Source: Phormidium sp. OSCR (lineage in GTDB: Bacteria > Cyanobacteriota > Cyanobacteriia > Cyanobacteriales > Geitlerinemataceae). From it: 64,000 bases of DNA. Position 1 is the first letter of the stretch, and each line of letters begins with the position of its first letter. The position numbers and the translations under genes are program-made. The stretch covers positions 1-64,000 of the forward strand of contig LJZT01000008.1 in assembly GCA_001314905.1 (NCBI GenBank). Direction: 5' to 3'. Of this stretch, positions 39,793 to 58,081 are shown in pieces. Below the pieces are notes generated by a model. That model saw only the letters and a list, made by a program, of their open reading frames with translations. It had not been told where the DNA came from and made no database searches.

Positions 39793-40505
39793 GCCACACC
39801 TCCAGGGAGCAACTCTTGCCAATTTGCATCACCCATCTCAGGGCGGGTTGTCCAAGTTAACCAGCCTAACCCCGTGGATTTGCCACCCCCCAAGGCGTGA
39901 ATGTGACCTAAGGCAGCGCTGAGGAGGAGTTTAGTATAAGGGGGAGCATGGGGGTGAATGTATAAACTTCCCTGAAATTCCAGATTAAGGTTAGCCGGGG
40001 AGGTTTCCAAGAAATAGAGTTTTTGGTCTTCAGCGGTGAGACGGCGGCGGTTGAGAGTGACGCCGGGACGTAATACCTCAGGAAGCGTATCAGTGGCCTC
40101 ATGACAGATGAGATCGTTGACATCGACCTGAGAAGGTAAACTCGGATTGCCGAAGATTTGGCAGATGAGACAATGGTGACGAGAGTCTTCCTCAACACGA
40201 TACTCATCCCGTTGGAAACGGGTCTCCTCTGCTTCAGTTAAGCGAGCCCGTTGGGGACACATCGTGGCTGGATTGGGGGATTGACAGACGGGCCAGCCAA
40301 GTCCCCGGGCCAGTTTCTCGCACTCATGGCGCAAGCGTCCTTTGAGTTGGGAGGCGGGGATGAGGAGTTGTCCTCGGGCGTTGCGGAGGATGGGTTTGTC
40401 GGCCAGGGAACCGGAAGACCCCCCGGCGCCAACACAAAGTGCCGTGTTGATGGTGGCGGTGAGGGGCAGAGATTCCCCAATTTGGCTCGATTGCAGGTTA
40501 ATCAT
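39789..40505 (-). CDS. csm3: Csm3-like Cas7 (RAMP) protein 1
   Basis: 238 residues from the ATG at 40505, overlapping the cas10 stop by 8 bp. SLPLTATINTALCVGAGGSS, then SLADKPILRNARGQLLIPAS with the Asp in the catalytic loop, QLKGRLRHECEKLARGLG, a Cys-rich insert (GWPVCQ, ATMCPQ, HHCLICQIFGNPS; a possible zinc site), TLNRRRLTAEDQKLYFLET and the loop GGGKSTGLGWLTW. It is the first Cas7 of the complex. The Cys insert and HCLICQIFG are typical for Csm3. Confidence 0.85.
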   Translation of the reverse strand: MINLQSSQIGESLPLTATINTALCVGAGGSSGSLADKPILRNARGQLLIPASQLKGRLRHECEKLARGLGWPVCQSPNPATMCPQRARLTEAEETRFQRDEYRVEEDSRHHCLICQIFGNPSLPSQVDVNDLICHEATDTLPEVLRPGVTLNRRRLTAEDQKLYFLETSPANLNLEFQGSLYIHPHAPPYTKLLLSAALGHIHALGGGKSTGLGWLTWTTRPEMGDANWQELLPGGVA

Positions 40506-42795
40506 GGCCCGATACCTCCGACGGTGTGGCGAGGGAGTCACTCTTTAGTTGAGTATCACCTTCAATGAAGGGATATAAATCGACGATATCTCGCCAAAGG
40601 GTTTCATAGATAGTAGAGTCGTTTTCGCTGTCCAGTTGGCTCATCCAGGGGGCTAGGTTGCCCTTGTTCTCGGAGTCTTTTGGGGAACACCATATCTGTT
40701 CAAAATGGTCTTCTAAAAACTTTTGCTGCTCAGGCTTTAGGCGGACTCGAAAGTAGCGGTAGTTGAGGATAGCGGTTTGTTTACCCCGTTCTAGGAGACT
40801 GCGGATTTGATAGAGTTGCGATCGCGGAAACTCGGATTGTTTAAAAGCCTGAATTGTTTTAATCAAGCTCCCCACTTCTTGCAAGGTATAGGGACTGGCA
40901 TGAAGTTTGAGCTTGGGTGGGCCAGGAACAACCCATGCTTGTTGACGAAATTCCTCAATATTGGAGGATATCATGGTTACAGACTTGAGGGTTAAGATAT
41001 CGATTGTACCTCCCAAGTAACCTTTGTCTTTTTTTAGAGTTTTGGCATATTTTTTGGCAGATTTGAGCAATTGATTGACCAGGCGATTGGCATAGTAAAT
41101 TGGCGTATCATATTTTGTGGTTAGCACCCCAATTGATGTACTGAGTTGGCTGTTGCGGAATGAAGTGAGTTGGCGGCGATCGCGGTGAGGATTTCCAGAA
41201 GGCCTAACGGCATCTGGAATACGATATTGTCCCGTCTGTTCCAAAATTTCCTCAAATTTCTCGCCAATATCTTGAGCAATTTGCAGCGCCTGATTAGCCG
41301 GAACAATAATCATCACGTCATCCCCGCCAATAGCAATAATTTCAAAGGGGTGAACCCAGTCGCCATTACGATCTTGATTATCTTGTTTTTTTAGGTTGTT
41401 CAATTCATGGGGATGAAGGCGATTAGCCAAGGCATAATAGACCGACTTCTCCGTTGCCTCAAAAATATGTTCGCTAAACTGCGAATACTCTTCTGGGGTT
41501 TTAATTTTCTGGATATAGCCCCCCATATTGTTGCCATCGGCATAGATAAAACTGAGAAATCTATTACTAGCATTGGCAATTTCCTCAACATTGCGAGTTT
41601 CTGTAACCGAGGACTTGGGGCAATCTCGATAATACTGCTGTTGCAAGCCTTGATGAGACTCCTCTGTGAGATATTGCCGAAACCGTTCCACCCAACTATC
41701 AACATAACCAGGAGTCCAATCTAATCCTAAATTCTGATACCAGTCAGGACGGTTGTTACGCTCAACTTTCGTCTGTTGTCCCATCAAGTATTTCCGCGCT
41801 AGAGGTTCAGAAAACTTGGGTTTGCTGGGGAGTTCGCTGATAGTGCCGAGGCTAGAGATACGATTATTCTCATCCCGCATTAGGTAGGGATGGGTCTCAA
41901 AGTGGGGTGGATAGCGGCGAGTCGTGTCACGGGAGGGGGTATCATTGCCACTGCGACGTTGGTTGAAGCGGATGGCGAGTTTGCGTGTCAGTTCGTTGAA
42001 ACTTTTGCTATTGAAGAAGTTCTCTCGTTGTTGATTGGAGTTGTTAAGGCTGGCTTTACCAAAATACGCTTCGACGAGGGGATTGTTGGCGTTGTTTTGA
42101 TACCAATCGAACCAGGGAGTAGCGTCGAGGTTTTCCTGAAAGAGTCCAAAACGAATTTCTAGGAGTCGGAAGGTTTCGCCAACGGCGCAACTATTGGCGG
42201 TGAGGGTTTCTTGGGTATAGCGTTTTTCAATGGTATCCGCGAGGCGGTTAGTATAGGCGGCGGGACAGAAGGCGAGAATATTGCCCCCAGTAGAATAGAT
42301 GATGAGTTGGGGAATTAAGGCGTCAGCCAGTTGAGGATCGTGGGTTTTGAGCCAATTGCGGGGACTGCGGTAGTCTTCTAGGTCATTGTTGGGGTTCTGT
42401 TTGCCGAAAAAGGCGGGGATATCGATGAGGTTGATGCGATCTAAAATTGCAGAAGCGCCCCGAATTTCCATCAGGTTGGCGGAGTCGAAGACATAGTTTT
42501 TGATTTTGGTTGCACCCCCATAGACTAAGCCAATGGGGGTGGTTTGGTTCCAGACATCTCCGACGAGTTGTTGAACGGCGCTGAGGGTTTCGGGTTCTGC
42601 GTCGCTGGGAATGGCTTGGAGTTGTTCAACCTGCTGGACGATATCCTGCAAGTCTGCGGGAATCTCGTCACCGTTGGATTGGATGAAGGTATCGAGGTGG
42701 CTGCGATCGCACTTCGGTTCCCCTTCATCTCCCCAGGCTAAGCACCAAGTTAGGGCAAGTTTTAGGTTGGTTTGGATTTCCTGAAGTGAAGACAT
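40498..42795 (-). CDS. cas10: Cas10 large subunit with intact GGDD, no HD domain
   Basis: 765 residues. A first palm-like domain (about 85-215) carries a degenerate STGGNILAF strand in place of GGDD. The second palm has FIYADGNNMGGYIQ (418-429) and the cyclase motif IAIGGDDVMIIVPA with GGDD at 490-493. No N-terminal HD nuclease motif is seen, as in many III-D Cas10. It should make cyclic oligoadenylates when target RNA is bound. It lies 49 bp after the CARF-HEPN gene and overlaps the next gene by 8 bp. Confidence 0.92.
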   Translation of the reverse strand: MSSLQEIQTNLKLALTWCLAWGDEGEPKCDRSHLDTFIQSNGDEIPADLQDIVQQVEQLQAIPSDAEPETLSAVQQLVGDVWNQTTPIGLVYGGATKIKNYVFDSANLMEIRGASAILDRINLIDIPAFFGKQNPNNDLEDYRSPRNWLKTHDPQLADALIPQLIIYSTGGNILAFCPAAYTNRLADTIEKRYTQETLTANSCAVGETFRLLEIRFGLFQENLDATPWFDWYQNNANNPLVEAYFGKASLNNSNQQRENFFNSKSFNELTRKLAIRFNQRRSGNDTPSRDTTRRYPPHFETHPYLMRDENNRISSLGTISELPSKPKFSEPLARKYLMGQQTKVERNNRPDWYQNLGLDWTPGYVDSWVERFRQYLTEESHQGLQQQYYRDCPKSSVTETRNVEEIANASNRFLSFIYADGNNMGGYIQKIKTPEEYSQFSEHIFEATEKSVYYALANRLHPHELNNLKKQDNQDRNGDWVHPFEIIAIGGDDVMIIVPANQALQIAQDIGEKFEEILEQTGQYRIPDAVRPSGNPHRDRRQLTSFRNSQLSTSIGVLTTKYDTPIYYANRLVNQLLKSAKKYAKTLKKDKGYLGGTIDILTLKSVTMISSNIEEFRQQAWVVPGPPKLKLHASPYTLQEVGSLIKTIQAFKQSEFPRSQLYQIRSLLERGKQTAILNYRYFRVRLKPEQQKFLEDHFEQIWCSPKDSENKGNLAPWMSQLDSENDSTIYETLWRDIVDLYPFIEGDTQLKSDSLATPSEVSGHD

Positions 42796-42844
42796 TAGCT
42801 ATAACGTTTGTCAGGGAGTTCGGCTTTGGCAAAGGGATGACGAC

Positions 42845-44179
42845 TCAACTGTCTTCTAATTCTGAATCATTTGCTTCAGGGGAGGTGATTGGCGGTAGAA
42901 AATTGTTGGCGATCGCCTTGAGTTCAAGATAGAGTTTTTGGGCTCGTTCACGTAATTTTGTAGCTGGAGAAGGTCCTGGGTTCATTCCAACATGAGCAAT
43001 ATCATTTCTTAATTCCGTCATTTTTGACCAAGTTTTTGTTAATTCATCAATCCCTGGCAATTTTTCAAAGTCTTCGTCCAGTGAACAATTTTTGACTGGA
43101 CGCGGTTCTTTTTTACGAATCTCAGTGGCGTTGTTCAGGGCTAGTTCAACATCATTACGTCCACCATGCAACTGAAACATTGGTTTGTCAAAACGGAGAA
43201 CCAAGACCGAGATAATCCACTCTCGGGCTAATGTCACTGCTTGAACGATTTGGTCATGGGCTAAATACCAATCGATCATCTTAAGTTGCAACAAAAGGTT
43301 TGTCGCTAAAACGTCCCGGCTTTTGGGGTCATTTAAGGCAAACTGCCCCTGTTCTTCAATGATTCGATCAACCAGCAAGGTGAAGGGCTTGGCACGCTTT
43401 TCAAGCGTCGGCATAGCATCCCTCAGTCTTGATTCTAAATCGCAGGAAGCTTCCATAGTTTCAATCGGACGAGTGATTCCCAATGCTAGTGAAACCGATT
43501 CGATTGCCTCAGCCGCTTTAGTTAAATGGATACGAATGGGGCGTGTTTCAGGCTGATCTCGTAATTCTTGATTCGAGGGAATAACTTTTCTGAGAAGACT
43601 AGCTAAGTCTTTCCCATTTCCAGTTTTAATAAATTGGTCTGTTGCTGCTGTCCATTCCAATAAACCCACAATTGGCAGTAGATCAACAACTGGAGCTTCA
43701 TTCTTCCCTGGCTGAAATGCACCATAAACAATCCCCTCAATCTCAACGTTACGAACAACTCGTAGATAACTGACAGCAATTAAAGCTAGCACCGGGAGAG
43801 AACGGAAGCCATGAGTGATATCAAACAGGATGCGATCGCCCTCTTCAATATGTTCAGTAATCTTATCAAAAATCACCCAAATATCATTCTCATTGTGATT
43901 TTCTGGAATCTCTCGAATTGCTTGCAAGTCAACTCGTCCCGCCAAGCTGTCTTCGAGCATTTTCCAGTTCGATTGGGATAACTCTTCCGGTATTTTAAAC
44001 TCTGCGGTGGGTGTCAATAAGACATAGAGGGTATCAATTGGATAAAACTCGATTAAGGCTTCTTGAAAAAAACGAGTCGTTTTTAATTCTCCAGCAAGAC
44101 TTCGATAGTTGGTCTTACTATAACCCCTGGGATTAAAACCTAAAAATGAAATCGCCTTCAGCTTAGATTGAGATGTCAT
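42845..44179 (-). CDS. CARF-HEPN ribonuclease (Csx1/Csx2 family)
   Basis: 444 residues. The N-terminal CARF half has KAISFLGFNPRGYSKTNY and the DxTHG motif in RILFDITHGFRSLPVLAL (D120-G124), which binds cyclic oligoadenylate. The C-terminal half is helical and ends with the HEPN catalytic motif ELRNDIAHVGM (R391-x4-H396). It is the effector RNase switched on by Cas10 product, degrading RNA indiscriminately. It is the first gene of the operon, so it is made together with its activator. Confidence 0.9.
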   Translation of the reverse strand: MTSQSKLKAISFLGFNPRGYSKTNYRSLAGELKTTRFFQEALIEFYPIDTLYVLLTPTAEFKIPEELSQSNWKMLEDSLAGRVDLQAIREIPENHNENDIWVIFDKITEHIEEGDRILFDITHGFRSLPVLALIAVSYLRVVRNVEIEGIVYGAFQPGKNEAPVVDLLPIVGLLEWTAATDQFIKTGNGKDLASLLRKVIPSNQELRDQPETRPIRIHLTKAAEAIESVSLALGITRPIETMEASCDLESRLRDAMPTLEKRAKPFTLLVDRIIEEQGQFALNDPKSRDVLATNLLLQLKMIDWYLAHDQIVQAVTLAREWIISVLVLRFDKPMFQLHGGRNDVELALNNATEIRKKEPRPVKNCSLDEDFEKLPGIDELTKTWSKMTELRNDIAHVGMNPGPSPATKLRERAQKLYLELKAIANNFLPPITSPEANDSELEDS

Positions 44180-44622: not shown

Positions 44623-45195
44623 TCACCCCCAAACCCACTGTAAACGCACCACTAACCCCGGCAATACCCCCTCTCCCGAAAGAGTTTCCGGGTCGTCTAA
44701 ACATTGCACCGACTCTCCCGGACAATAGCGGTAAACCCGCCGCGCATCTGGGTCAAGCAACCACCCCAGTTGAGCGCCATTGTCGAGATATTCCTGCAAT
44801 TTCCCTTGCAGCATGGTTAAGCTGTCCGTCGGGGACTTCAACTCCGCTACAAAGTCAGGACACATCGCGGCAAACTTACGGCGTTCCGCCTCCGGGAGAC
44901 TTTGCCAACGTTCCATTCTAATCCAGGCAACATCGGGAGCGCGAATTGCACCATTGGGTAGGGTGAAGCCACTGGAGGAGTCAAAGGTGACACCGAGTTG
45001 ATCGTGCTGATTCCACATCCACAGTTGTGCAGCGAGTCCCAGGTTTTGTTGACCGGTTTGACTGGCGGAAGGGGCCATGGCAATGAGTTGACCTTGTGCG
45101 GTTCGTTCCAGGCGCAGGTCGGGGTTGTTTTGACAAAGTTCCCAGAACCTGTCATCACTCAAGTCTAGGGTGGGTTGGAGGTTAAGGGTAATCAT
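44623..45195 (-). CDS. Uma2 family endonuclease (left flank of defence cassette)
   Basis: 190 residues, start MITLNLQPTLDLSDDRFWEL. The catalytic set is present: IRAPDVAWIRMERW (Asp), PDFVAELKSPTDSLTMLQGKLQEY (Glu, Lys, Lys) and LGWLLDPDARRVYRY. Its start codon overlaps the remnant end of another Uma2 frame (LPSEANDES then TGA, sharing ATGA). The first 13 codons plus that remnant form the direct repeat found again at 58124. A restriction-like nuclease fold is certain; the role is not. Confidence 0.85.
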   Translation of the reverse strand: MITLNLQPTLDLSDDRFWELCQNNPDLRLERTAQGQLIAMAPSASQTGQQNLGLAAQLWMWNQHDQLGVTFDSSSGFTLPNGAIRAPDVAWIRMERWQSLPEAERRKFAAMCPDFVAELKSPTDSLTMLQGKLQEYLDNGAQLGWLLDPDARRVYRYCPGESVQCLDDPETLSGEGVLPGLVVRLQWVWG

Positions 45196-45327: not shown

Positions 45328-48300
45328 TTATTCCTCAGCATCCAGGCTATCCGACTCCAGAGCCTGTTGCTCAAACTTTAACGTCTTGCAGTTCTCAAGC
45401 ACGGTTCGAGCCACATCCTCGGGAATCCCCTCTGGGATATCTGCATCAATGTCTAACGTGATTCGGACCTTAGCATTTTTCAAGGTGGTTAAATGTTGAA
45501 TGACCTCATCCGTCACCAGTCCTACATCCCGATTTAGCCGCAACGCATCCAGATTCACCGTTCCCCGAAATCGTCGTAAAACCGTTGGCGTTGGATTGGG
45601 ATTGTCTGCACCCCCATCTGATGAGGTCCCTCCCTGCGGCCAATCTCCCCCGCGTTCCCCAACTGTTGACCCTTTAGAGGTTTTTCCAGATGAGGTTTTT
45701 CCAGATATAGAACCCCGCTTTTGTTCCTCCTTTGCTCGCATTTCTTCGAGTTGTTTTTGGGCAATTGTGGGTTTAACAATTAAACAATTACGACTAATAC
45801 TCGGGCTAATTCCTGTCCCTGCTTTGAGTCCCTGATAGGTTCCTGTTTCTTCGTCAAACCCTTCGGCGTAGGCAAAATAATCCGTCCAAACGGTGGACAT
45901 AACGCCCGCCTCGATCGCCCCCAATAAAACCTGTTTATCTGTTAGTCGCGGTAAATAGAGATATTGGGTTAAGTATTTCCAGAGTTGTTCGAGGTCAATG
46001 TGATTGTTCTCCGGCCAGATAAACGTATCTAGAACTTCCAGACCTAAAACTTGGGGACTAAACGTATCCGATAAATCTTCCTCATGGGCCGCTTTCTGAC
46101 TCGCTCGCTGAATCATTGTTTGGGGACCTTGCAGACGGTTGGTTTTCCATTGAATCGCCCCCGTCGGCTCCGGTTGTTCTGGAACCAATAACCATTGATA
46201 GACCTCAGTGATGGAGTTGTTCACATCTTGGTCAACCTGTTGCCGTTTGGTGGTTGCTTGTTTCGTCTGATAGGGATCTAAGTTTAACTCATCCTTCTCA
46301 TCCAAAATTGCCGTCCAAGCTAGATATTGCGCGACTATCTTTTCCAATCCCTCCAACTTGGCCTTATCCCCCGCCAAAAATAAGAGGGTATTCTTGTAAT
46401 AGCGCGGACTGCTACCTTTATTGTTCAAGACCTCCTCAACCCAGTCCTGGGCAGGATTGTCGGCAGATGATTGTTTATCATAGGGAGACTCCGGCGGCAC
46501 AATAACCAGGCGCACCCCGGCATCGCGCTCATCGGGAATATCGCTGCTGGACTTTGGGGCCACATGAACTGCTGAAAACTGACCCCGATCGCGATCGCGC
46601 TTCAGTCGTTTTACCAGTTCTTCTAACACCAAATAGCGATCGCCCTCACTAAGAAATTGATGAGCGCGTTCCTGGGCCGTGCGGTTCACATTTGGCTGAG
46701 TCGAGACCCAGTAACGATTCCCATCCACATAAAGATAAGTCCCGCGATCGGTGAGTCGTCGCAGTGCATCCCCAAACGTGGCCACCGTCTCCCCCGGTTG
46801 CACACAGCCGAGGCGAATGCGACGTTCCTCTAAGCCGCGAGTGGCGGCCCGTAGGGTGGGGGCTGACCCCATATAAATGGTGCGCGTGACGCGACGACAA
46901 GCCGAATAGCGACCGAAATTCGGGTACTCGCGATCAATCGCCAGAGGTAACGAATTGGCTCCATCCACATCCTTGTCGATAATGGGAATCCAATTATCCT
47001 CTAAGTAGCGGGTCAGTTCCGACTGCACCTGGGAGTCATCCATCGGTACATTGCCCGGCATAATCATTAAACTGCTGTCATTGCGTTCCCAGAGGGTATG
47101 AATCACCTTCGCCATCAGCCGCAACACCCCCCGCGTGCGCTGAAACTTCTCTAAACTTGACCAGTCTGAATAGAGGCGATCGAATAACTCAGGATGAATC
47201 GGATACGCCTCTACCATCCGTCGCTTATAATCCGCCTCCTTGGTTTCCGTGGGGAACTCCTGACTTTGGCTGCGGTACATCTCCCAAAAGGCCTTAATCA
47301 CCGCATCCCGTTGCCTAAACAGGGTCGGGTCTTCACTCCCCTGAAACAACCGCCGTCGCACAATCTCAAAACTTTCCTCCGCACTGGCCGGCCGCCAGGG
47401 AGACTCCACCCGACCGATCGCATTCTTAAGGCGTTCCGTGGCTTCCTGTCCCTTGTCCCCCCCTTTCTCGATATCCGACGAGGGAATACTCACCACTAAT
47501 AAGGCATCTTTGGCATTCTTCGCCGACTCACTCAGAGTTTGCGCAAAGGTAAACTGAGTATCAAAACTGCCCCCCGCCAAATCCGCTTGGTCATGGAGTT
47601 GACGCGCATAGGCCACCCATTCATCAATCAGAATCAGACAAGGGGAAAAGCGGTTAAACAGTTGTTTGAGAGTATCGCCAGGATTCGTCGCCGTCTCGTC
47701 CGCCTCCCGTAGCATCTCATAGCCGGCTTCTCCTCCCAATTGCCAGGCCAGTTCCCCCCAGAGGGTTTTGATCAAGGGGGGACGGTTGCGCATCCCTTTG
47801 CCATAATCTTTGATGCCACTGGGGGGTAGTTTATTCCCCACCAACACCGCTAGATTGACATCTTGGGGAGGTTCCTTGAGATTGGTTTCCCGAAAAATCT
47901 CCTCCATCCCCGGTAAATCCTTAATCTGGAGTGCTTGACAGAGGTGATAGAGGGCTAACATGGCGTGGGTTTTACCGCCGCCGAAGTTGGTTTGTAACTC
48001 AATGACCGGATCGCCTCCCTGACCTGTTAAACGCCGTAAAGCATTGCTCAGAAGCTGTTTTAAGCCTTCTGTGAGATAGGTGCGGCCATAGAACTCTGTG
48101 GGGTCGCGATATTCGTCTGACCCTTCATCGAGGTAGACTTGCCAGAGGTCAGCGGCGAACTCCGCTTGTTGGAACTTCCCCGACGCCACATCGGGATGAG
48201 GCGTGACAATCTCGCGCCAGGGTTTGAGTCCGCTTTGGGGTTGGCCTTCCGTGGGGGTGATGGCAACTTTACGGCTTTCTCGTCGGGCCTCGGCTTCATA

Positions 48301-48729
48301 CCGCAACCGCATCAGTTCCTGTTTCTCTTTATCGACTTTGTTGGCTTCTGGGGCGGAAATGGCGGTTAATAAACGGGCGATGCTATCGAGGGCGCGATAG
48401 GCGTCATCGGTCGAAAAACTGGTTTGGTGCGCCCAGTCGTTGCGGGTATCCCGTAGTTCACTGACAATGCTGCGTTCTGAACGACCGAGGATTTGGCGAA
48501 AGATGTTGTTCCACTGGTCCCACATGAGGATGAGGAGGGCGGACACATCGTTGTCAAGAACCTCCTCGACGGATTTACGGGCCACATAGCTATCGGGGAG
48601 AGAGGCGGAGGCGGTGAGTAACCAGCGATCGCCATAATTGGCTTTCATTTCCCGTTCAATGAAGGGATAGAGTCCGTCTCGGAGGAGGCTGAGGGCGCGA
48701 CCGACTCGTTCGTGATTGCTGATAGCCAT
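45328..48729 (-). CDS. HEPN-DUF499 ATPase, predicted anti-phage protein
   Basis: 1133 residues. The N-terminal ~120 residues form a Swt1-like HEPN domain with the motif RDTRNDWAHQ (R96-x4-H101). The DUF499 P-loop domain follows: QTNFGGGKTHAMLALYHL (Walker A 250-255) and CLILIDEWVAYARQL (Walker B near 370), with an arginine-rich region later. DUF499 ATPases occur with DUF1156 methylases and SNF2 helicases in defence islands and are predicted, by comparative genomics, to act against phage. It is last in the minus-strand series of the cassette, 49 bp after the DUF2442 gene. Mechanism unproven. Confidence 0.85.
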   Translation of the reverse strand: MAISNHERVGRALSLLRDGLYPFIEREMKANYGDRWLLTASASLPDSYVARKSVEEVLDNDVSALLILMWDQWNNIFRQILGRSERSIVSELRDTRNDWAHQTSFSTDDAYRALDSIARLLTAISAPEANKVDKEKQELMRLRYEAEARRESRKVAITPTEGQPQSGLKPWREIVTPHPDVASGKFQQAEFAADLWQVYLDEGSDEYRDPTEFYGRTYLTEGLKQLLSNALRRLTGQGGDPVIELQTNFGGGKTHAMLALYHLCQALQIKDLPGMEEIFRETNLKEPPQDVNLAVLVGNKLPPSGIKDYGKGMRNRPPLIKTLWGELAWQLGGEAGYEMLREADETATNPGDTLKQLFNRFSPCLILIDEWVAYARQLHDQADLAGGSFDTQFTFAQTLSESAKNAKDALLVVSIPSSDIEKGGDKGQEATERLKNAIGRVESPWRPASAEESFEIVRRRLFQGSEDPTLFRQRDAVIKAFWEMYRSQSQEFPTETKEADYKRRMVEAYPIHPELFDRLYSDWSSLEKFQRTRGVLRLMAKVIHTLWERNDSSLMIMPGNVPMDDSQVQSELTRYLEDNWIPIIDKDVDGANSLPLAIDREYPNFGRYSACRRVTRTIYMGSAPTLRAATRGLEERRIRLGCVQPGETVATFGDALRRLTDRGTYLYVDGNRYWVSTQPNVNRTAQERAHQFLSEGDRYLVLEELVKRLKRDRDRGQFSAVHVAPKSSSDIPDERDAGVRLVIVPPESPYDKQSSADNPAQDWVEEVLNNKGSSPRYYKNTLLFLAGDKAKLEGLEKIVAQYLAWTAILDEKDELNLDPYQTKQATTKRQQVDQDVNNSITEVYQWLLVPEQPEPTGAIQWKTNRLQGPQTMIQRASQKAAHEEDLSDTFSPQVLGLEVLDTFIWPENNHIDLEQLWKYLTQYLYLPRLTDKQVLLGAIEAGVMSTVWTDYFAYAEGFDEETGTYQGLKAGTGISPSISRNCLIVKPTIAQKQLEEMRAKEEQKRGSISGKTSSGKTSKGSTVGERGGDWPQGGTSSDGGADNPNPTPTVLRRFRGTVNLDALRLNRDVGLVTDEVIQHLTTLKNAKVRITLDIDADIPEGIPEDVARTVLENCKTLKFEQQALESDSLDAEE

Positions 48730-48778: not shown

Positions 48779-49048
48779 TTAAACTTGAGTTTTGGCTTGG
48801 GGAGATGGTGCGCCTCGTAACAGTCCTTCTGTGCTTAAATCTTCATCGAGGTCTGGCCAATGGATACCATACCCACCTCCACAGATTTGCCAAGTGTTTC
48901 GTTGTTCTGGGGTCCCGTTGAGGAGTTTGGGATACCAGACTAATGGCACTGTTATGGTTCTACCATCTATTAAGTCAACTCGGATACGGTCTGGGGTGAA
49001 GGAAACTTGTTTCACTCTTTCGTCAGCCTTGATTTGTGAAATACTCAT
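48779..49048 (-). CDS. DUF2442 protein
   Basis: 89 residues with VKQVSFTPDRIRVDLIDGRTITVPLVWYPKLL followed by IHWPDLDEDLSTEGLLRG, the classic DUF2442 sequence. Such proteins commonly sit beside DUF4160 in toxin-antitoxin-like pairs. It overlaps the DUF4160 gene by 26 bp and precedes DUF499 by 49 bp. Confidence 0.9.
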   Translation of the reverse strand: MSISQIKADERVKQVSFTPDRIRVDLIDGRTITVPLVWYPKLLNGTPEQRNTWQICGGGYGIHWPDLDEDLSTEGLLRGAPSPQAKTQV

Positions 49049-49265
49049 TCCAAGCCTCTGATAATCGTGTTTGATGGTTTTCTACAATATCTTGGATCTT
49101 TTTCAATTCTTTGGCGCTAAAACCCAGGTTTTTGGCTAATTCAACCGGGTTTAACCAGAATTTAGCCGAGAGTTCATTGCGATCAATATGAATGTGAGGC
49201 GGTTCATTCGGTTCATGGCTGTAAAAATAGAATCGATAGGGTCCCTGACGCAAAACAGTTGGCAT
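49023..49265 (-). CDS. DUF4160 protein
   Basis: 80 residues from the ATG at 49265 (MPTVLRQGPYRFYFYSHEPN), the usual DUF4160 start, then PPHIHIDRNELSAKFWLNPV and LKKIQDIVENHQTRLSEAWN. A start at 49307 is possible. It forms a translationally coupled pair with DUF2442; a toxin-antitoxin role is suspected for such pairs but is not established. Confidence 0.88.
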   Translation of the reverse strand: MPTVLRQGPYRFYFYSHEPNEPPHIHIDRNELSAKFWLNPVELAKNLGFSAKELKKIQDIVENHQTRLSEAWNEYFTNQG

Positions 49266-49320
49266 TTCTTTAGGGAATTTAGATTTATACCATTTTCCAA
49301 AATTCATGCCACAGATGGCT

Positions 49321-49471: not shown

Positions 49472-49723
49472 TTATCGATAAATAGATTTATTATGGTGAA
49501 GAGAAGGATTATCTAATTTTCCCGGTATGGCATCATCTCCTAACGTTGCAAAGACTTCCCAAGCATCTTCATTATCGGTATTTTCCATGACAATTGGTGG
49601 GTTTCTAGAGCCAACTGGAGAAGATGGCATGGCCTGGTTGAGTTTGGCAACTAAAGCCTGTTGTTCGTCTTCCGGTAAGGAATGAATCACATCAATGATT
49701 GAATCGACTAATTTGCTGTTCAT
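49472..49723 (-). CDS. Small acidic protein, antitoxin-like
   Basis: 83 residues from the ATG at 49723 (MNSKLVDSIIDVIHSLPEDE). An N-terminal helix with EQQALVAKLNQAM and an acidic middle (ENTDNEDAWEVFATLGDDA) resemble cyanobacterial antitoxins of PIN or RelE type. No toxin partner is adjacent unless DUF4160/DUF2442 serve. It starts 46 bp after the DUF1156 stop. I do not recognise it further. Confidence 0.6.
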   Translation of the reverse strand: MNSKLVDSIIDVIHSLPEDEQQALVAKLNQAMPSSPVGSRNPPIVMENTDNEDAWEVFATLGDDAIPGKLDNPSLHHNKSIYR

Positions 49724-49768
49724 GATGGTATCTCGGTGACAACGGGGGGTGAACAAGACTGGCGATGC

Positions 49769-52690
49769 TTAAAATAATTGCCCTTGTTGCGGCGCGGCTT
49801 CACACTCACTCGACAGACGATTGATTTCCGGCCAGGAGATGACAAGACTATTATAGGCGATCGCCTCCGAGGACCAGCCCTTGCGATCGCACAAGTTATA
49901 GAGACGATAGGCTAAATCACGGGCAATTTCCACCTCCGCCGCTTCTCCTTTCAGGGCCGCCAACAACTCCGCCGCCCCCAGTTCGCCGTTTTGCAGCAGT
50001 CGCTGAATCAGATGTTGGGTGAGTTCCCAATGGGGGATACGGTTATCGGTTTGGGGAGTCCAGTGTTCTGGGAGTTCCTCCCGTTTCACTAGGCGCACCT
50101 TTCCAGCCTTAGCTGTTAAAATTCCCGCTTCTTCCAAACCTTGAACACTGGTATTGCGGGCGGTTGAGAGGGTTTCCGCCTCGCCGTAGGGGCCTGAATT
50201 AAATTGATATTGTTCAAACCAAGTCAAGGCCCAACGGGTATCGCTATCAAATTCCCCTTCTTGTTCGGTGAGGTATTCATCGAGGAGTTGGTTAATCAGT
50301 TGTAGGGCGGTGCGAACGGTGAGGGGGGAGCCGTCATTTTCCAGGACGGCGCTATATTGGGAGTAAACCGCCATCCCCGGCCCGATACTGGCTTGGGCGA
50401 GGTCAACGGGGGCGATGTTTCCCTGTTGCAGCGTTTTTAGGGCTGTGGGGAGTTCCCGTTTGAGTTCTTTGAGGAATTGGCGGCGGCTGGTTTTGGGGGC
50501 GTTTTCTGGGCGAGGGCGACAGACGAGGACAATAGAGGAAGCGAGGGCGTTTGAGGCTTGTCCTCTCATGCGGTTACTCAATTCTGTTCGCAAGGGCCAG
50601 GTTCCACAAATACTGAAGTTTGACTGCATCAAACCTTCTAAAATAGTTTCCCAACCTGTCGATGCTACGTTTTCATTATTATCCGTTTCCGTTTGTTTCA
50701 AGGCATAATAAACCGTTACTGGGTAATCATGATGATTTAGATTGTTGATGCGATGAAAAACTTTGATTAGGCTAGACTCAAAAAAATCTCTTGCTTTTTG
50801 CTTGCTCCCGTGGCGAAATGAATCAGCAACCATTTCCTCAGATTTTGGGACTAATAAAGTCCTGCAAATATCAGAATAAATTGAACTCAGACCAGGTCGA
50901 AGCCAGGTATAAAAAAAGTCCGACAAGTCTGCATAAGGAACTGCATCATAATATGGAGGATCCATAGACACGACTTTATGTCTTAAGTCGTTGGTATGAT
51001 CTTCCATAGCATTATGCTGTAATGAAAAACTTTCGGCATTGCAACTTGAACCTTCCAAAACTTTTCTTGCCCAAGTTATAGCACTCATGAAATTACCGCT
51101 GGAATCACTCATAGGATTCGCTTCAGCAAAATCCCATGTCATAGGAATTGCCTGTCTTGTAAATACATGGCTCATTTTTTCTCCACTGGTATGCCATGTA
51201 CACAAATTACTCCAATAATCAGAACTTTTATCAACAGCAAAAGCCAAATAAACTGAAATCGCCTCCCCATAAGCTCTCGCTCCAGTTCCGCCATCATTCA
51301 AGGGAATATTATCATCCGATAACCCTGCCGCCAGAGCCTCTTGAATCGCCTTGTCTTTGGCTTCACTCACCAAATCACTAAACGTCGTTAACGCAACCAA
51401 TTGACGAGAGGTGAATAAATCAGCGTGTTTCGTCATGCCATAAATCACAGGAGTCATATGACGAGAATTATTTACCAACTCTGTTTCTGGCTTCCATTTC
51501 GGTTGAGCAGAATTAGCAATTTGTTCCTGTTCATCTGTCGGTGATACATAAGTCCGACCCTTATCTCCTTCCGCCACAATTGCCATCAACTGCGCCCCCA
51601 TGCGCCCCTCACGACCTTCAGAACGCACATAGTCCAACCCCACCGGCGTTCCACAAGCCAGACAAACCGCCCCCTTGCGGCTCACAGTCCCTTCTGGCAC
51701 ATCTCCCCTTCCTGACTGAACCTGAAAGCGAATCCGAGGAACTTCGGCCTCTGCGGGGGTCTCCCCAGGCGGCTGATGTTCAGCACCGGCCTCCACAATC
51801 GGCTTAACCCAAGCCTCCTTGTCCTTCTTCGTCGAAAGCTTAAAACTGCGCACCAACGGCATCTGACAGCCACAAGCCGGGTTCGGACATTTCACCGTCC
51901 GCGCCCATAACCAGGCAATCACCGTCGCCTTATCCCCATCCTCCAACTCTACCGGGGGATACAAATGACCAATACGCTGCAACGCCTGCTCCCGCATCCA
52001 GGCGCCATAATAGCGCACATCCGCCGCCAAACCCTGAGCGCCTCGCCACGACTCCAGAGAGACCCTGGGCCGGTCTTCCCCATTCACCGGCGCTAAATTG
52101 GCAAACTTAGGCGGAATCTCAATCAACGCCTTATTAATCAACACCGCCACCGGGTTTAAATCACTCGCATGAGCCTCCAACCCCAATCGTTGCGCCTCCA
52201 GGGGAATCGAGCCACCGCCAGCGAAGGGGTCATAAGCCGGGGGTGCATGATGGGCGATATACTCCCGCACCGCTTCGGGAGTTGTCGGTGGCGTCTCCCC
52301 GCGTCCCCACGCCAAACAGCGAGCAATCTCCCGTTGCGCCTCGTCAATAATCTGCGGTTCCTTAATATCATCCCAAGACACCAAGCCGCGCACCTTTTGC
52401 TTTTGCTTCCCTTTCTTGTCCGTGTCCACCACAATCCGGCCCAAAATATCAAACAGCCGTTGTCGTTCCTGGGTCTGGTCTTCCTCTGTGGGGAATCTAT
52501 CGGGCCAACTGCTGGGGTCATCCACCAAAGAGGCCCAAAGCACCGCCCGACAAGCCGCCAAGGGTCGCCGCGCCCACCACAGATGAAGCGTAGAAGGATG
52601 GCCATGACGAATCGACTTCTCCCGCGCCGATTCCATATTGATGGCTTCGAGGGGTAGGGCAACTTCGATGAGTTTCTTGCGGTAGGTCAT
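49769..52690 (-). CDS. DUF1156 DNA methylase, predicted anti-phage
   Basis: 973 residues. The N-terminal DUF1156 block (KLIEVALPLEAINMESAREK and HPSTLHLWWARRPLAACRAV) is unmistakable. Methyltransferase motifs are AYDPFAGGGSIPLEAQRLG (154-160, SAM) with ASDLNPVAVLINKA, and SMDPPYYDAVPYADLSDF (DPPY 577-580). Cysteine pairs (C268, C273, C275; C343, C346) suggest a zinc ribbon. It probably methylates adenine or cytosine to mark self DNA for the helicase/ATPase partners. It is divergent from the second methylase across 254 bp. Confidence 0.88.
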   Translation of the reverse strand: MTYRKKLIEVALPLEAINMESAREKSIRHGHPSTLHLWWARRPLAACRAVLWASLVDDPSSWPDRFPTEEDQTQERQRLFDILGRIVVDTDKKGKQKQKVRGLVSWDDIKEPQIIDEAQREIARCLAWGRGETPPTTPEAVREYIAHHAPPAYDPFAGGGSIPLEAQRLGLEAHASDLNPVAVLINKALIEIPPKFANLAPVNGEDRPRVSLESWRGAQGLAADVRYYGAWMREQALQRIGHLYPPVELEDGDKATVIAWLWARTVKCPNPACGCQMPLVRSFKLSTKKDKEAWVKPIVEAGAEHQPPGETPAEAEVPRIRFQVQSGRGDVPEGTVSRKGAVCLACGTPVGLDYVRSEGREGRMGAQLMAIVAEGDKGRTYVSPTDEQEQIANSAQPKWKPETELVNNSRHMTPVIYGMTKHADLFTSRQLVALTTFSDLVSEAKDKAIQEALAAGLSDDNIPLNDGGTGARAYGEAISVYLAFAVDKSSDYWSNLCTWHTSGEKMSHVFTRQAIPMTWDFAEANPMSDSSGNFMSAITWARKVLEGSSCNAESFSLQHNAMEDHTNDLRHKVVSMDPPYYDAVPYADLSDFFYTWLRPGLSSIYSDICRTLLVPKSEEMVADSFRHGSKQKARDFFESSLIKVFHRINNLNHHDYPVTVYYALKQTETDNNENVASTGWETILEGLMQSNFSICGTWPLRTELSNRMRGQASNALASSIVLVCRPRPENAPKTSRRQFLKELKRELPTALKTLQQGNIAPVDLAQASIGPGMAVYSQYSAVLENDGSPLTVRTALQLINQLLDEYLTEQEGEFDSDTRWALTWFEQYQFNSGPYGEAETLSTARNTSVQGLEEAGILTAKAGKVRLVKREELPEHWTPQTDNRIPHWELTQHLIQRLLQNGELGAAELLAALKGEAAEVEIARDLAYRLYNLCDRKGWSSEAIAYNSLVISWPEINRLSSECEAAPQQGQLF

Positions 52691-52944: not shown

Positions 52945-54462
52945 ATGGCGATATCTGCAAAGAAACGGCAATTCGGTGATTTTCAAACCCCCGATAGTTT
53001 GGCTCAACAGGTGACCGACCTCCTCAAGCAAAACTACAAAATTTCGCCTCAAATTATCCTCGAACCCACCTGCGGAACTGGGGCATTTATTCGGGCCGCA
53101 CTCCAGACCTTTCCGACTTCAGAAATTGTCGGCCAAGAGATTAACCCTAACTACATCCAAGAAGCACAACAATCGATTGCCAACCATCCCCAGGGTCATC
53201 AAGTCAGCCTCAATCAGGGAGATTTTTTTGCAACGGACTGGCAAGCCTTAATGTCTAAGTTTTCGCGAAATATCTTGATTTTGGGGAATCCTCCCTGGGT
53301 AACCAGTAGTGAATTAAGCCTGCTCAATAGTCAAAATCTGCCCTCAAAATCCAACCATCAAAATCGACGGGGAATTGAAGCCATAACCGGTTCTGCAAAC
53401 TTTGATATTTCTGAATGGATGCTCCTTCAATTCACTCAATGGCTTCCCCATCAAACCGGAACCCTTGCCATTCTCTGTAAGTATTCAGTGGCTCGCAAAG
53501 TGTTTTGTCAAGTCAAAAACAATGATACGGCTCCCTTCATGGCTCACATTTATCTCATCGATGCCAAATCATATTTTAATGTAGCCGTTGCCGCCTGTCT
53601 TTTTGTTTTTCGTTATGAGTCCTCCGGTGGTTTTGATTGTCACCTATATCCAACGCTCGATTCCCAAATACCATCTGAGTCCATCGGTGAACGGGATGGT
53701 ATTCTCGTTCGTAACACAGTTCAATATGACCGTTGGCGTCATTTGCTTGGACAAAATTTGAATTATACATGGCGTTCGGGCATTAAACATGACTGTTCTA
53801 AAATCATGGAACTTGCACCGGTTGGTGATGGCAAATTTAGGAATGGAATCGGCGAGATTTATGACCTCGAACCCACCTATATTTATCCACTTTTAAAAAG
53901 TTCAGATATTGGTAATGGTAGAATCGAAACTTACCGTAAAATGGTTCTCGTAACCCAGAGGGCGGTGGGTCAAGATACCCATTCTATTCAAAAGAATGCC
54001 CCCAAAACTTGGCAATATCTCAGCGACCATAATCAGATTTTAAGTCGTCGTAAAAGTTCGATTTATAAAAATAAACCCCCTTACTCAGTTTTTGGGATTG
54101 GTGCTTATTCATTTAAACCTTGGAAAATTGCGATTTCTGGTTTTTATAAGCACTTAAATTTTCAACTCATCTCCCCCTTAAACAATAAACCAGTCATGGT
54201 CGATGATACGGTCAATTTTCTATCTTTTGATAGCCAAGCCGAAGCTCAGTTCATTTTGAAGCTAGTGACGTCCAAACCAGCCCAGGAATGTCTAACGTCG
54301 ATGCTGTTTTGGGATGAGAAACGGCCCATTACCATCGATATTCTGAGACGACTATCACTGCAAGCTGTTGCGCGAGAACTTGGATGTTTAGAACTCTATA
54401 CTGACTGGGTAAAAGCCATCCAAGTCAACAGTCAGGGCCAGTTGGAATTAGGATTATTCTAG
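52945..54462 (+). CDS. N6-adenine DNA methylase, NPPW type
   Basis: 505 residues. FGDFQTPDSLAQQVTDLL and LEPTCGTGAFIRAAL (SAM motif I, 41-50) with NILILGNPPWVTSSELSLLN (NPPW 115-118) are the gamma-class adenine methylase motifs of TaqI-like and type IIG enzymes. The C-terminal half (about 270-490) looks like a target-recognition domain (RSGIKHDCSKIMEL, PLLKSSDI). It is the only plus-strand gene of the cassette, facing the helicase tail to tail. No separate restriction enzyme lies next to it. Confidence 0.88.
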   Translation: MAISAKKRQFGDFQTPDSLAQQVTDLLKQNYKISPQIILEPTCGTGAFIRAALQTFPTSEIVGQEINPNYIQEAQQSIANHPQGHQVSLNQGDFFATDWQALMSKFSRNILILGNPPWVTSSELSLLNSQNLPSKSNHQNRRGIEAITGSANFDISEWMLLQFTQWLPHQTGTLAILCKYSVARKVFCQVKNNDTAPFMAHIYLIDAKSYFNVAVAACLFVFRYESSGGFDCHLYPTLDSQIPSESIGERDGILVRNTVQYDRWRHLLGQNLNYTWRSGIKHDCSKIMELAPVGDGKFRNGIGEIYDLEPTYIYPLLKSSDIGNGRIETYRKMVLVTQRAVGQDTHSIQKNAPKTWQYLSDHNQILSRRKSSIYKNKPPYSVFGIGAYSFKPWKIAISGFYKHLNFQLISPLNNKPVMVDDTVNFLSFDSQAEAQFILKLVTSKPAQECLTSMLFWDEKRPITIDILRRLSLQAVARELGCLELYTDWVKAIQVNSQGQLELGLF

Positions 54463-54490: not shown

Positions 54491-57400
54491 TCAAGGGTCA
54501 ACACTGTTTCCAAATTGCCATAAGTCTCGCCAGTTATAGTTAATACTACTGGCGGCAAAATCCGGTTCTCGTTGAAAGGGGCGTTGCACATAGCGCAGCC
54601 GACGGCTGGGAACTTCCACTAAGGCCAGGATATAACGTTCAGGTCGGTTCAAGGCGGTGAGAATTTCGTTTTTAGTCACGGTGACGGTTTGCGCCCCCTC
54701 CCGTCGCCCTTTCACTTCAATAAATCGCAATTCTCCCGTTTCAGGCTTCACCGACTCGATATCATAGCCACAGTTTTCGCCACTGACATCTCGGGGCTGA
54801 TAGCCTAACTCCTGTTCCTTCTGTATCACCGCCTCCATCGCCGCGAGTTCAACGGCTTTGCGATTTTGGGCTAAAGTGCCAAAATCCTCTCCAGAGGGGG
54901 CAATATGGGCTTGTAAACGGCTGTAGGGAATCACAAACGCCGCCCCAATTACGACTGGGGGTAAGGGGGAAAGTTGTCGTTCTTGGTCCAGTTCACTGAG
55001 GCGTTTTTCGAGGCGGGCCTGTAACTCGTCGGCCCGTTGCTGGGCTTTGCTAGAGTTGAGTTTGGCGTTGGTTTTCCCGGCTTGTTCCTGTAGCCGTAAA
55101 TCTCTGGCCCGTTGGTCCCAATAGTTAATTTCTTTGGTGAGTCGGTCTTTGACGGCCCGCTGGGTTTTGTCAATGAGTTCCTGTTTGGGTTGGTTGACTT
55201 CTTGGAAATGGGGGGGGACGAGATGGTTAATGGTATAAGTCATCGCCTGTCGTTCGATGTCTTCTCTCAGGGCCAGGTTGGGTAAAATCTCGTCAATCAC
55301 CTGTTTTTCCTCGTCCCGTAAAGGGCGATAGTCTAAGTAGGGAGCATAGCCGGCGTTGATAGCCTCTGATGCGTTGGGGGAGGTGTTAGGGGAGGTGTTA
55401 GGGGAGGTGTTGGGAGCGTTGCTGTTGAAGGCTTGAAGGGGAATTTCCACATATTGCATCCGCCGGGAGACCAGCCGCCGTTGTCCTTGGGCGTCGGTTC
55501 GTGCGTCTTGCAGGCTATGTTCGAGACCAACTAAAATCCTCTCGGGGCGAGGGTTGGGGCTATCATCGACGAGAATGGTTCCCTGACGCAAGAGGTCGCG
55601 GTGACGTTCGAGGATGAGGTCGAGGGTGGCGTCGAGAAGGGGATGGCCGGGACAGACTAAATCGGCGAGGGGCCGGCCGGGAACGCTAATTAGGTCTTTT
55701 TGAAAGCAAATCCGTTCGTAGCTTTTGAGGATGGGGTCTCCGAGTCCGATTTGGCGATCGCGGTTGCGAATGACCGCCGGAACATGGGTAATCTGGTAGC
55801 GTCGGGGTTCCCGTTCCCGCAAGGTTCCCCCCAATCGGCTAAAGGCTTCTCGGAAAAATGAACTGATAAAGTGGGGTTGCAGTTTCCGGGCCTGGGCTCG
55901 TTCCATCTCGGTGCGAATGGCTTGGACTTTGCTGGTGTCCAGGGAGTCTTGGGCCAGGGCACCTTCGTTGATGAGGTCGCGGAGATGGTCCCGGTTGAGG
56001 CGATCGCTCAGCAGTCGTTCTAGTTTAGCCTTGATATCGGGGCGATCGCCATAGCGAATGGCCTCTAACAGCAACTCCCGCAATTCAGTCCCGGCGATGG
56101 CTTTCCCCAAAACGTCAAACACTTGACCCCCCAAGGCCTGCTGTTCGACTTCCAACTTCTTCAATAGGGCCAAATAGACATCTCCCTCTCGCGTCTCCCC
56201 AGCGACTAAGTTCCAGAGATGACAGACTTCGGTTTGGCCAATGCGGTGAATGCGGCCAAACCGTTGTTCCAAGCGATTGGGATTCCAGGGTAAGTCATAA
56301 TTGACCATCAGATGAGCCCGTTGTAGGTTAATCCCCTCCCCTGCTGCATCGGTCGCCACCAACACCTCCACGCTGAGGTCTTGCTTAAAGGCTTCCTCAG
56401 CTTTTTTGCGTTCCTCTCGTCCCATCCCCCCATGAATCGTAACCACCGCTTCTGGACGGCCTAACAGGGTTCGGATGCGATCGCGCAGATAATTGAGAGT
56501 ATCCCGATGTTCGGTAAAAATCACCAATTTCCGCGACCCCTCGGGGCCTAACCAATCCTCCTGTGGCTGAGGGTCATCGGCGTTGGGAGTGGCGAAAATG
56601 GTCTGAATCACCCGCGATAACTCCTCCCATTTACGATCTTTCCCACTGCGGCGTACTTGTTGGGCCAAGCGTTCGAGTTTCCCTAGATGTTCGATTTCCG
56701 CTTGAAGTTCGCGAATCGTCCGAGAGGCTGTGGCTAAGTCCACCACTTCTTGTTCTGTGTGTTCCCGTTCATCGCTAGAGGAATCTTCAAAATCATCCTC
56801 AATGTCTTCGAGATCAATCATCATCCCTGCATCGAGTTGGGCCGTGAGTCCTCGTTGTAAGAGTTGTTCTTCCCGCAGTCGTTTTTGGAGGCGATCGCGC
56901 CGCCGTGTGAGAGACTGATAAATGGCTTCGGGAGACGAGGCCAGACGACGCTGGAGAATGGTTAACGCAAACCCTACGGTTCCTCGGCGACCGTTTTGGT
57001 TCAACGCATCGGCCCGATTAAATTCCTCTTTCACATAGTCGGTCACTTGTTTATAGAGGATAGTTTCCAACTCTGAGAGAGAATATTCAACGGTATGGGC
57101 GCGACGTTCAGGAAACAGAGGGCGACCATCAAATTTAAGCAAATCCTCTTTAATCAAGCGACGCATCAGGTCGGAGGTATCGCAAACATGAACTCCATCG
57201 CGAAACCGCCCCTCGAAGCGATCGCCATCTAACAGGGCTAAAAATAATTGAAAGTCCTCTTCTTTGCCATTATGAGGAGTCGCCGTCATCAGCAAGAAAT
57301 GGCGCGTTAAACTCGACAGCAGTTTTCCCAATTTATAGCGTTTTGTTTCCCGAATTTCGCCACTAAAAAACGATGCAGACAGTTTATGGGCTTCATCCAC

Positions 57401-58081
57401 CACCACCAAATCCCAGTCCGTCTGGCTCAGTTTCGCCTGTAACTTGGGATTACGACTGAGTTTATCCAATTGAGCGACCACTAAGGGCATTTCAGCGAAG
57501 GCGTTGCCAGTGCGGGCGGCTTCGAGGCGATCGTTCGTTAAAATTTCAAAAGGGAGATGAAATTTCTGATCTAACTCATCTTGCCATTGAATTGCCAAAC
57601 TCCCTGGACAGACAATTAAACAGCGTTGCAAGTCACCCCGAATCAGCAACTCCCGCATAAATAGCCCCGCCATAATGGTTTTTCCCGACCCAGGATCATC
57701 GGCTAACAAAAAGCGCAATGGTTGACGCTTTAGCATCTCACCATACACCGCTGAAATTTGATGAGGTAGAGGTTCAACTAATGACGTATGAACCGCCAGC
57801 AGCGGGTCAAATAAATGAGCTAAGCGAATCCGATGGGCTTCCGATACCAGGCGAAAAGTCTCTCCATCACCGGTCAAACTCCAAGGTCGTCCTTCAGTGA
57901 CTAATTCTAACTGACTTTCAGAACTAGGATATAGGAGTTGTTCTCCTAGCTTTCCTTCACTATCTTTATAGGTTAAATCAATGGCTTCTCCAACCCAGGA
58001 AGCATCAATAACAGTTACAGTTTTTCCCGGAATAATTCCCCTAAGAATTGCTCCACGAGTGATGTCTTTAAGTTTAACCAT
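54491..58081 (-). CDS. SNF2-type helicase with DUF3883 nuclease-like tail
   Basis: 1196 residues. Helicase motifs: LLADDPGSGKTIMAGLFMRE (Walker A 131-135), LVVVDEAHKLSASFF (DEAH 229-232), FLLMTATPHNG and, in the second lobe, NRLEQRFGRIHRIGQTEVC. The C-terminus (about 1115-1180) has NCGYDIESVKP then LRFIEVKGRREG, a DUF3883 module with a PD-(D/E)xK-like ExK motif. A 12-bp unit repeats to give NTSPNTSPNTSPNAS near 55375-55420. With DUF499 and DUF1156 it forms a predicted anti-phage module. It is the first minus-strand gene of the cassette, 42 bp from the right direct repeat. Confidence 0.9.
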   Translation of the reverse strand: MVKLKDITRGAILRGIIPGKTVTVIDASWVGEAIDLTYKDSEGKLGEQLLYPSSESQLELVTEGRPWSLTGDGETFRLVSEAHRIRLAHLFDPLLAVHTSLVEPLPHQISAVYGEMLKRQPLRFLLADDPGSGKTIMAGLFMRELLIRGDLQRCLIVCPGSLAIQWQDELDQKFHLPFEILTNDRLEAARTGNAFAEMPLVVAQLDKLSRNPKLQAKLSQTDWDLVVVDEAHKLSASFFSGEIRETKRYKLGKLLSSLTRHFLLMTATPHNGKEEDFQLFLALLDGDRFEGRFRDGVHVCDTSDLMRRLIKEDLLKFDGRPLFPERRAHTVEYSLSELETILYKQVTDYVKEEFNRADALNQNGRRGTVGFALTILQRRLASSPEAIYQSLTRRRDRLQKRLREEQLLQRGLTAQLDAGMMIDLEDIEDDFEDSSSDEREHTEQEVVDLATASRTIRELQAEIEHLGKLERLAQQVRRSGKDRKWEELSRVIQTIFATPNADDPQPQEDWLGPEGSRKLVIFTEHRDTLNYLRDRIRTLLGRPEAVVTIHGGMGREERKKAEEAFKQDLSVEVLVATDAAGEGINLQRAHLMVNYDLPWNPNRLEQRFGRIHRIGQTEVCHLWNLVAGETREGDVYLALLKKLEVEQQALGGQVFDVLGKAIAGTELRELLLEAIRYGDRPDIKAKLERLLSDRLNRDHLRDLINEGALAQDSLDTSKVQAIRTEMERAQARKLQPHFISSFFREAFSRLGGTLREREPRRYQITHVPAVIRNRDRQIGLGDPILKSYERICFQKDLISVPGRPLADLVCPGHPLLDATLDLILERHRDLLRQGTILVDDSPNPRPERILVGLEHSLQDARTDAQGQRRLVSRRMQYVEIPLQAFNSNAPNTSPNTSPNTSPNASEAINAGYAPYLDYRPLRDEEKQVIDEILPNLALREDIERQAMTYTINHLVPPHFQEVNQPKQELIDKTQRAVKDRLTKEINYWDQRARDLRLQEQAGKTNAKLNSSKAQQRADELQARLEKRLSELDQERQLSPLPPVVIGAAFVIPYSRLQAHIAPSGEDFGTLAQNRKAVELAAMEAVIQKEQELGYQPRDVSGENCGYDIESVKPETGELRFIEVKGRREGAQTVTVTKNEILTALNRPERYILALVEVPSRRLRYVQRPFQREPDFAASSINYNWRDLWQFGNSVDP

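Follow-up and report, generated by a model that had tools for sequence, protein, structure and literature searches.

The hmaC gene of Phormidium sp. OSCR codes for a DUF499 ATPase, and the motif R96-NDWA-H101 of its product is situated in a genuine, conserved HEPN domain at the N-terminus. The gene was analyzed in a stretch of 64,000 nucleotides, here called the window (positions 1 to 64,000 of contig LJZT01000008.1, assembly GCA_001314905.1). The motif is of the catalytic type and makes the domain a candidate endoRNase. On balance, we lean to the view that hmaC serves a restriction-modification (R-M)-like cassette of the Type-1 bacteriophage exclusion (BREX)-related (Hma) kind, in which the HEPN domain would form a second, ATP-gated arm working as a paired endoRNase.

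Identity and conservation of the HEPN domain

The hmaC reading frame is open on the minus strand from 48729 to 45328 (1133 codons), and the plus strand across the same stretch is interrupted by stops. Pfam HEPN_Swt1 (PF18731) matched residues 11-125 of HmaC with an E-value of 3e-41 and 140.8 bits against a curated cut-off of 27.5, and Pfam DUF499 matched residues 319-843. The PADLOC HmaC profile gave 1078 bits over residues 168-1125, so that the HEPN domain falls outside this profile. Many plasmid homologues are named 'Swt1 family HEPN domain-containing protein' by NCBI. Residues 96-101 read RNDWAH within the HEPN_Swt1 match, and the RxxxxH pattern pointed out by an earlier, sequence-only reading of this DNA was thus confirmed.

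Residue conservation was analyzed in an alignment of 38 HEPN-DUF499 proteins, which included the window protein, L002, L003, proteins from 18 further genomes of the cyanobacterial phylum and 17 plasmid records taken from 51 with full coverage. R96 was found in 38/38 and H101 in 37/38. Similarly, R96 was present in 36/36 and H101 in 35/36 of a second alignment of fused proteins, made without L011 and L012, which are near-copies of L009. The HEPN part showed a mean pairwise identity of 42% in this second set; D61, F77 and R112 were invariant, and E91 was kept in 34/36, N97 in 33/36 and W99 in 32/36. Two actinobacterial rows, L075 and L076, possess R and H and have lost E91 and D115. Both residues were also kept in 9/9 further HEPN_Swt1 proteins, comprising one truncated HmaC, one unassigned protein and seven proteins of about 400 aa; the four of the last group that were scanned (L045, L052, L054 and L057) are cyanobacterial HEPN-RNase III-dsRBD proteins. 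The sequence-only reading had made its proposal depend on the conservation of R96 and H101 across homologues, and it withstood this comparison.

The structure of residues 1-170 was predicted by AlphaFold 2 (AF2) from a 28-row alignment. The model is helical, with a predicted local distance difference test score (pLDDT) of 88.7; its helix 83-100 carries R96, and H101 is placed just beyond the helix end. Foldseek found no match to this model below E 0.001 in the Protein Data Bank. With a second structure aligner, the C-terminal (HEPN) domain of yeast Swt1 came first (Z 8.5, 125 residues, 3.2 Å) and the AbiF-RNA dimer second (Z 7.0, 139 residues, 3.5 Å), although Z scores under about 13 may reflect merely a common arrangement in helical folds. 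MtlR, HepT and Csm6 were among the next rows, and HEPN proteins dominate the top of the list. The structure prediction that the sequence-only reading had suggested for the N-terminus returned a HEPN-type model.

The full-length model of HmaC (pLDDT 81.7) had a predicted template modelling score of 0.54; in view of this score, no meaning is attached to where the model places the HEPN domain against the core. Its three best matches were the BrxC structures 9zll, 9zn5 and 9zdx (E 1e-6 to 2.6e-5), and the predicted fold agrees independently with the published DUF499-BREX kinship. A search by sequence for solved relatives gave none that was convincing (best E 0.097 and 0.22), and a viral fold library gave no match below E 0.001. 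Residues 1051-1126, where an RRM-like domain was sought, were modelled as strand-helix-strand-helix-strand with pLDDT of about 50-74 in most blocks.

Origin of the HEPN-DUF499 fusion

Of the 386 genomes searched in the window's phylum, 60 possess a match to the HmaC profile and 41 a match to HEPN_Swt1. All 19 HmaC matches that reach 900 bits have HEPN in the same open reading frame (ORF). HEPN was absent from 29/29 tested proteins more distantly resembling HmaC (L025-L033, L105-L124), and also from the plasmid proteins L073 and L074, which are closer in sequence. A tree of the DUF499 core was constructed from 69 rows, without the truncated L023 and L024, spanning Cyanobacteriota, Chloroflexota, Deinococcota, Actinomycetota, Pseudomonadota and Ca. 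Eiseniibacteriota. The 38 HEPN-bearing rows formed one clade (support 99/96) neighboured by L073 and L074, and the HEPN state took one change in 98% of the bootstrap trees; long branches among the rows lacking HEPN make the wider order unsure. By this tree, one fusion suffices within the sample, and since the HEPN-bearing rows form a single clade, the R/H pair appears to have been retained since the fusion at its base. No copy of HmaC was found in 50,697 phage records and none was confirmed in viral contigs.

In L060 (genome G157), HEPN_Swt1 takes a central position within a 1304-aa ORF, at about residues 407-536 of the retrieved part, and this ORF is not a DUF499 protein. Genome G167 (L103/L024) holds a decaying hma cassette, in which hmaC survives as a HEPN-less ORF of 748 aa and the retrieved stretch showed no hmaB; the hmaC remnant occurs twice in this genome.

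The hma cassette

The genes hmaB and hmaA are situated upstream of hmaC, and all the three match their PADLOC profiles with more than 1000 bits (Table 1). A DUF499 ATPase, a DUF1156 methylase and an SNF2 helicase thus stand in one cassette, as in Hma and Type-1 BREX-related systems. The three genes occur together in 25 of the 31 neighbourhoods retrieved, the other 6 being mostly clipped by contig ends or by the limits of the retrieved stretch. The DPPY motif of HmaB suits an amino-methylase, in contrast to the m5C assignment given below. The NOV_C domain of HmaA was matched by Pfam with 78.6 bits, and its catalytic-type residues E1089, E1122 and K1124 are present in 25/25 homologues and D1107 in 24/25.

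The sequence-only reading had expected, on condition that the motif is catalytic, a combination of DNA modification, an ATPase sensor and an RNA- or tRNA-cutting arm in this cassette, and had taken it to suggest abortive infection rather than classic restriction. HmaB with its DPPY motif, the intact ATPase motifs and the conserved catalytic-type motif of the HEPN domain agree with these parts, but the helicase-nuclease HmaA had been overlooked. As HmaA provides a predicted DNA-cutting arm, the preference for abortive infection is unsupported as stated, and restriction with a second, RNA-directed arm fits better.

Table 1. Positions of hmaC, its domains and motifs, and the other cassette genes in the window
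Feature	Coordinates	Strand	Evidence
hmaC, HEPN_Swt1-DUF499 ATPase, 1133 aa	45328..48729	-	Pfam HEPN_Swt1 + DUF499; PADLOC HmaC
HEPN_Swt1 domain of hmaC, residues 11-125	48355..48699	-	PF18731 140.8 bits; AF2 model pLDDT 88.7
R96-NDWA-H101 motif of HmaC	48427..48444	-	R 38/38, H 37/38 in HEPN-DUF499 alignment
DUF499/HmaC AAA+ core	45355..48228	-	PADLOC HmaC, alignments, BrxC structure matches
HmaC Walker A = FGGGKTH, residues 249-255; Walker B = LILIDE, around 364-370		-	Alignment
DUF2442 protein, antitoxin of DhiTA-type pair, hmaB-hmaC gap	48779..49048	-	PF10387 92.3 bits
DUF4160 protein, DhiT-like toxin, overlaps DUF2442 gene	49023..49277	-	PF13711 79.8 bits
hmaB, DUF1156 N6-type DNA methyltransferase, DPPY at residue 577	49769..52690	-	PADLOC HmaB 1207 bits; DUF1156
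Extra DNA methyltransferase (MTase_II-like), opposite strand, hmaA-hmaB gap	52945..54462	+	PDLC03310 547 bits; N6_Mtase
hmaA, SNF2-type helicase + C-terminal NOV_C/DUF3883 PD-(D/E)XK nuclease	54491..58081	-	PADLOC HmaA 1615 bits; NOV_C
NOV_C nuclease domain of hmaA, residues 1077-1158	54608..54853	-	Pfam NOV_C; conserved residues

Proposed mechanism and alternative readings

HEPN active sites generally work in pairs. In the mechanism which we favor, HmaB would mark the host DNA, the HmaA helicase-nuclease would attack unmarked DNA, and the BrxC-like ATPase of HmaC would assemble or license the complex. The N-terminal HEPN domain would be a metal-independent endoRNase working as a pair, and the resting cassette would keep two such domains apart. 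Contact of the ATPase with foreign DNA, or its release upon a block of restriction, would let ATP drive the AAA+ cores into a dimer and so unite the two active sites (R96/H101). These would form a second line by cutting the RNA of the cell, like PrrC behind PrrI, and might arrest the cell. HEPN RNases are described to cut RNA through the R and H of the motif, and PrrC is described as an ATPase-coupled HEPN protein restrained by its R-M partner (PMC3710099). The N-terminal AAA+ domain of BrxC is reported to dimerise reversibly with ATP, a Walker B mutant favoring the dimer (PMC13326643), and the full-length match of the HmaC model to BrxC suggests that HEPN pairing may be ATP-gated in a like manner. 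That cyanobacteria also fuse the same HEPN subfamily to RNase III-dsRBD, and that R and H persist in these proteins, likewise speaks for an RNA-cutting role.

Apart from the low Z scores, several observations weigh against this proposal. The single H101 exception, L007 of genome G284, carries H101R together with W73R; only 2/198 conserved core positions deviate in it and hmaA and hmaB of G284 are of full length, so that the cassette is intact and can, in this locus at least, do without these HEPN residues. DUF499 cassettes lacking HEPN are common, with 31/69 rows in our tree and 1076/2446 Type-1 taxa by published counts (PMC12839542). Conservation as such is unable to tell catalysis from a structural role. 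Linker 151-162 of HmaC is disordered in the full-length model and the placement of the HEPN domain is unpredicted. A real difficulty is that the AAA+ dimer of BrxC is reported to be asymmetric and back-to-face (PMC13326643), and such a dimer would not by itself set the HEPN domains as a symmetric pair; a flexible linker softens this point.

Another active role, which we regard as less than probable though deserving attention, is that the HEPN domain cuts transcripts of the invader, or RNA-DNA hybrids close to the scanned DNA, and brings about clearance, not suicide. A published reading of the DUF499 C-terminus as an RRM-like domain (PMC12839542) agrees with this, and the fusion of the same HEPN subfamily to the dsRNA-specific RNase III favors it. 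Against it, the HEPN partners of R-M systems, PrrC and RloC, are reported to cut host tRNA (PMC3710099).

It is rather unlikely that the domain is non-catalytic and serves RNA binding or dimerisation, as was proposed for eukaryotic Swt1, whose HEPN domain lacks the motif and is considered an RNA binder (PMC3710099). The intact G284 cassette with H101R would suit such a role, as would the non-motif residues D61, F77 and R112, which are as conserved as R96. In a domain for binding only, however, the exposed R and H should drift, as the inactive eukaryotic forms have lost both, yet R96 persists in 38/38 homologues and H101 in 37/38.

Taken by itself, the motif is no proof of anything, since 0.97 R....H are expected from the composition of HmaC and 1 is observed, and its spacing alone is not diagnostic, since R/H column pairs with 5-6 residue spacers are also kept in the DUF499 core (172/178 in 38/38; 537/544 in 37/38 and 32/38). 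R96/H101 nevertheless stands beyond chance because it is inside a curated HEPN match, at a helix end, and fixed as described, and a fortuitous RxxxxH in an ordinary ATPase helix is hence practically ruled out by the 140.8-bit family match, fold and conservation.

Because a single HEPN-DUF499 chain unites a BrxC-like ATPase with a putative RNase, cleavage of RNA could serve as a direct readout of ATPase switching. In BREX work, the passage of BrxC-type ATPases from the idling state to restriction is named as an open question (PMC13326643). The locus with natural H101R and the sister cassettes lacking HEPN offer ready-made controls.

Genes inserted between and beside the hma genes

The hmaB-hmaC gap was in view in 19 loci of the cyanobacterial phylum. 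In 6/19 it is occupied by an RNase or a pair of toxin type: PIN in L002, L088 and L093 by Pfam and in L090 by near-identity to L093, HepT with a nucleotidyltransferase in L097, and the DUF4160/DUF2442 pair in the window. Four of the 19 gaps hold other defence-type genes, namely DUF559 in L086, HSDR_N with an AAA_15 protein in L089, Uma2 in L096 (labelled by a tblastn match to the window Uma2, not by Pfam) and a type III-D-like set in L085. One gap has an unsupported MazF-like ORF (L095), and 8/19 show no inserted ORF in the ORF lists of these loci. The DUF4160/DUF2442 pair is a demonstrated toxin-antitoxin pair in Dickeya (PMC8198452); the window DUF4160 protein scored 25.7 bits with NF048015 DhiT, under its cut-off of 100. 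A small ORF beside the pair (49472-49756, minus strand; the pair spans 48779-49277) resembles the antitoxin-like ORF before the L002 PIN toxin. The hmaB-hmaC slot seems to have exchanged its toxin.

PIN genes occurred in either hma gap of 7/18 HEPN-bearing genomes against 0.10 expected from 230 PIN genes in 78 Mb, assuming uniform spread and leaving out G123. If defence islands are assumed to raise the expectation tenfold, P remains at 1e-4, in a comparison without a control set of other defence operons. They are situated in the hmaA-hmaB gap in L086, L095, L096 and L101 and in the hmaB-hmaC gap in L088, L090 and L093, the PIN gene of G284 (L007/L088/L125) being about 20 bp upstream of hmaC; five positions were checked in the gap count and the other two (G251 and G355) are near-copies from neighbourhood scans. 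In G332 (L085, 6951-16201), a type III-D-like set of Cas10, Cas7/Cas5-type RAMPs and a CARF Csm6-like protein is inserted between a remnant of hmaA and hmaB, fused into one ORF of 732 aa, and an intact hmaC, the CARF gene stopping 3 bp before the hmaC start. A toxin slot in the hma gaps was not described in the available text of PMC12839542 ('vapc' and 'addiction' are absent) or of PMC7641849, the latter of which reports PIN-GNAT-EVE genes near the operon. The gap genes (PIN, HepT-MNT, HicA, DhiT-like and even the type III CRISPR effector set) hint at a wider scheme, speculative and in our judgement improbable, in which HmaC is an ATP-gated RNase switch and the hma cassette a chassis for several RNA-cutting arms, so that blocked restriction would free more than one toxin.

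Uma2 nuclease-like genes flank the cassette on both outer sides (44623-45195 and 58168-58749, minus strand). Adjoining hmaC on its downstream side, and in the same orientation, are type III-B effector genes and a Csx1 (CARF-HEPN, RNDIAH) at 36569-44179, separated from hmaC by one of the Uma2 genes. Cas10 was found near HmaC in 3 of the 60 HmaC genomes searched (about 4 kb away in G000, inside the locus in G332 and about 30 kb away in G083), and a special tie of hma to type III CRISPR was rejected in favor of defence-island clustering. The window III-B proteins had no match in the 31 neighbourhoods, a search too narrow to include the type III-D-like set carried by G332. No Rfam family was found in 30000-64000, where a small RNA partner like that of AbiF was sought.

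Comparison with known systems

The Csx1-type neighbour (42845-44179) carries RNDIAH at residues 391-396, as the sequence-only reading had stated. The parallel it drew with HmaC holds only for the RxxxxH pattern, a signature of the whole HEPN superfamily also seen in Csm6: BLASTP between HmaC and the window Csx1 found no similarity (E 0.69), and no CARF match was found in HmaC by Pfam and PADLOC scans. PrrC-PrrI and RloC share with HmaC a HEPN RNase tied to an ATPase and R-M, and the second-line logic. They are functional analogues only, having an ABC-type ATPase with C-terminal HEPN, whereas HmaC has an AAA+/BrxC-like core with N-terminal HEPN. PglZ (PF08665) had no match in the whole genome (0/1), so the cassette is BREX-related and not BREX; DUF3780, a core gene of Type-2 BREX-related systems, had no match among the ORFs scanned with Pfam.

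The HEPN-DUF499 fusion is of a known kind, published in 2013 and 2026. The HEPN survey of Anantharaman et al. (2013) lists it (Ava_2192 type), calls it active, notes its R-M operon with a methylase and an SNF2 helicase-DUF3883 protein, and includes the fusion of HEPN to RNase III-dsRBD as well (PMC3710099). The window cassette shows no essential difference from this family, having the same Swt1-like HEPN, DUF499 AAA+ and operon partners; it adds the DhiTA-type pair and the extra methylase. The operon was also treated in a 2020 paper on EVE domains, where DUF499 is set beside CDC6/ORC1 for comparison (PMC7641849). Payne et al. (2021) named the Hma system (HmaABC) and called HmaB an m5C (5-methylcytosine) methylase (PMC8565338); the PADLOC HmaC profile (168-1125) is blind to the HEPN domain. 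In Nucleic Acids Res. 2026, Type-1 BREX-related systems are described as a DUF499 ATPase, a DUF1156 methyltransferase and a helicase with C-terminal PD-(D/E)XK, with an N-terminal HEPN in 1370/2446 taxa, for which a last-resort suicide effector was proposed (PMC12839542). No core difference from these systems was found in the window cassette. ATP-gated HEPN pairing was not met in the available part of that source and is an extension proposed here. The window cassette is an ordinary, well-formed member of this published system, to which the present analysis adds the one-clade origin in the sample, the natural H101R variant in an intact locus, the full-length BrxC match and the toxin genes between the hma genes.

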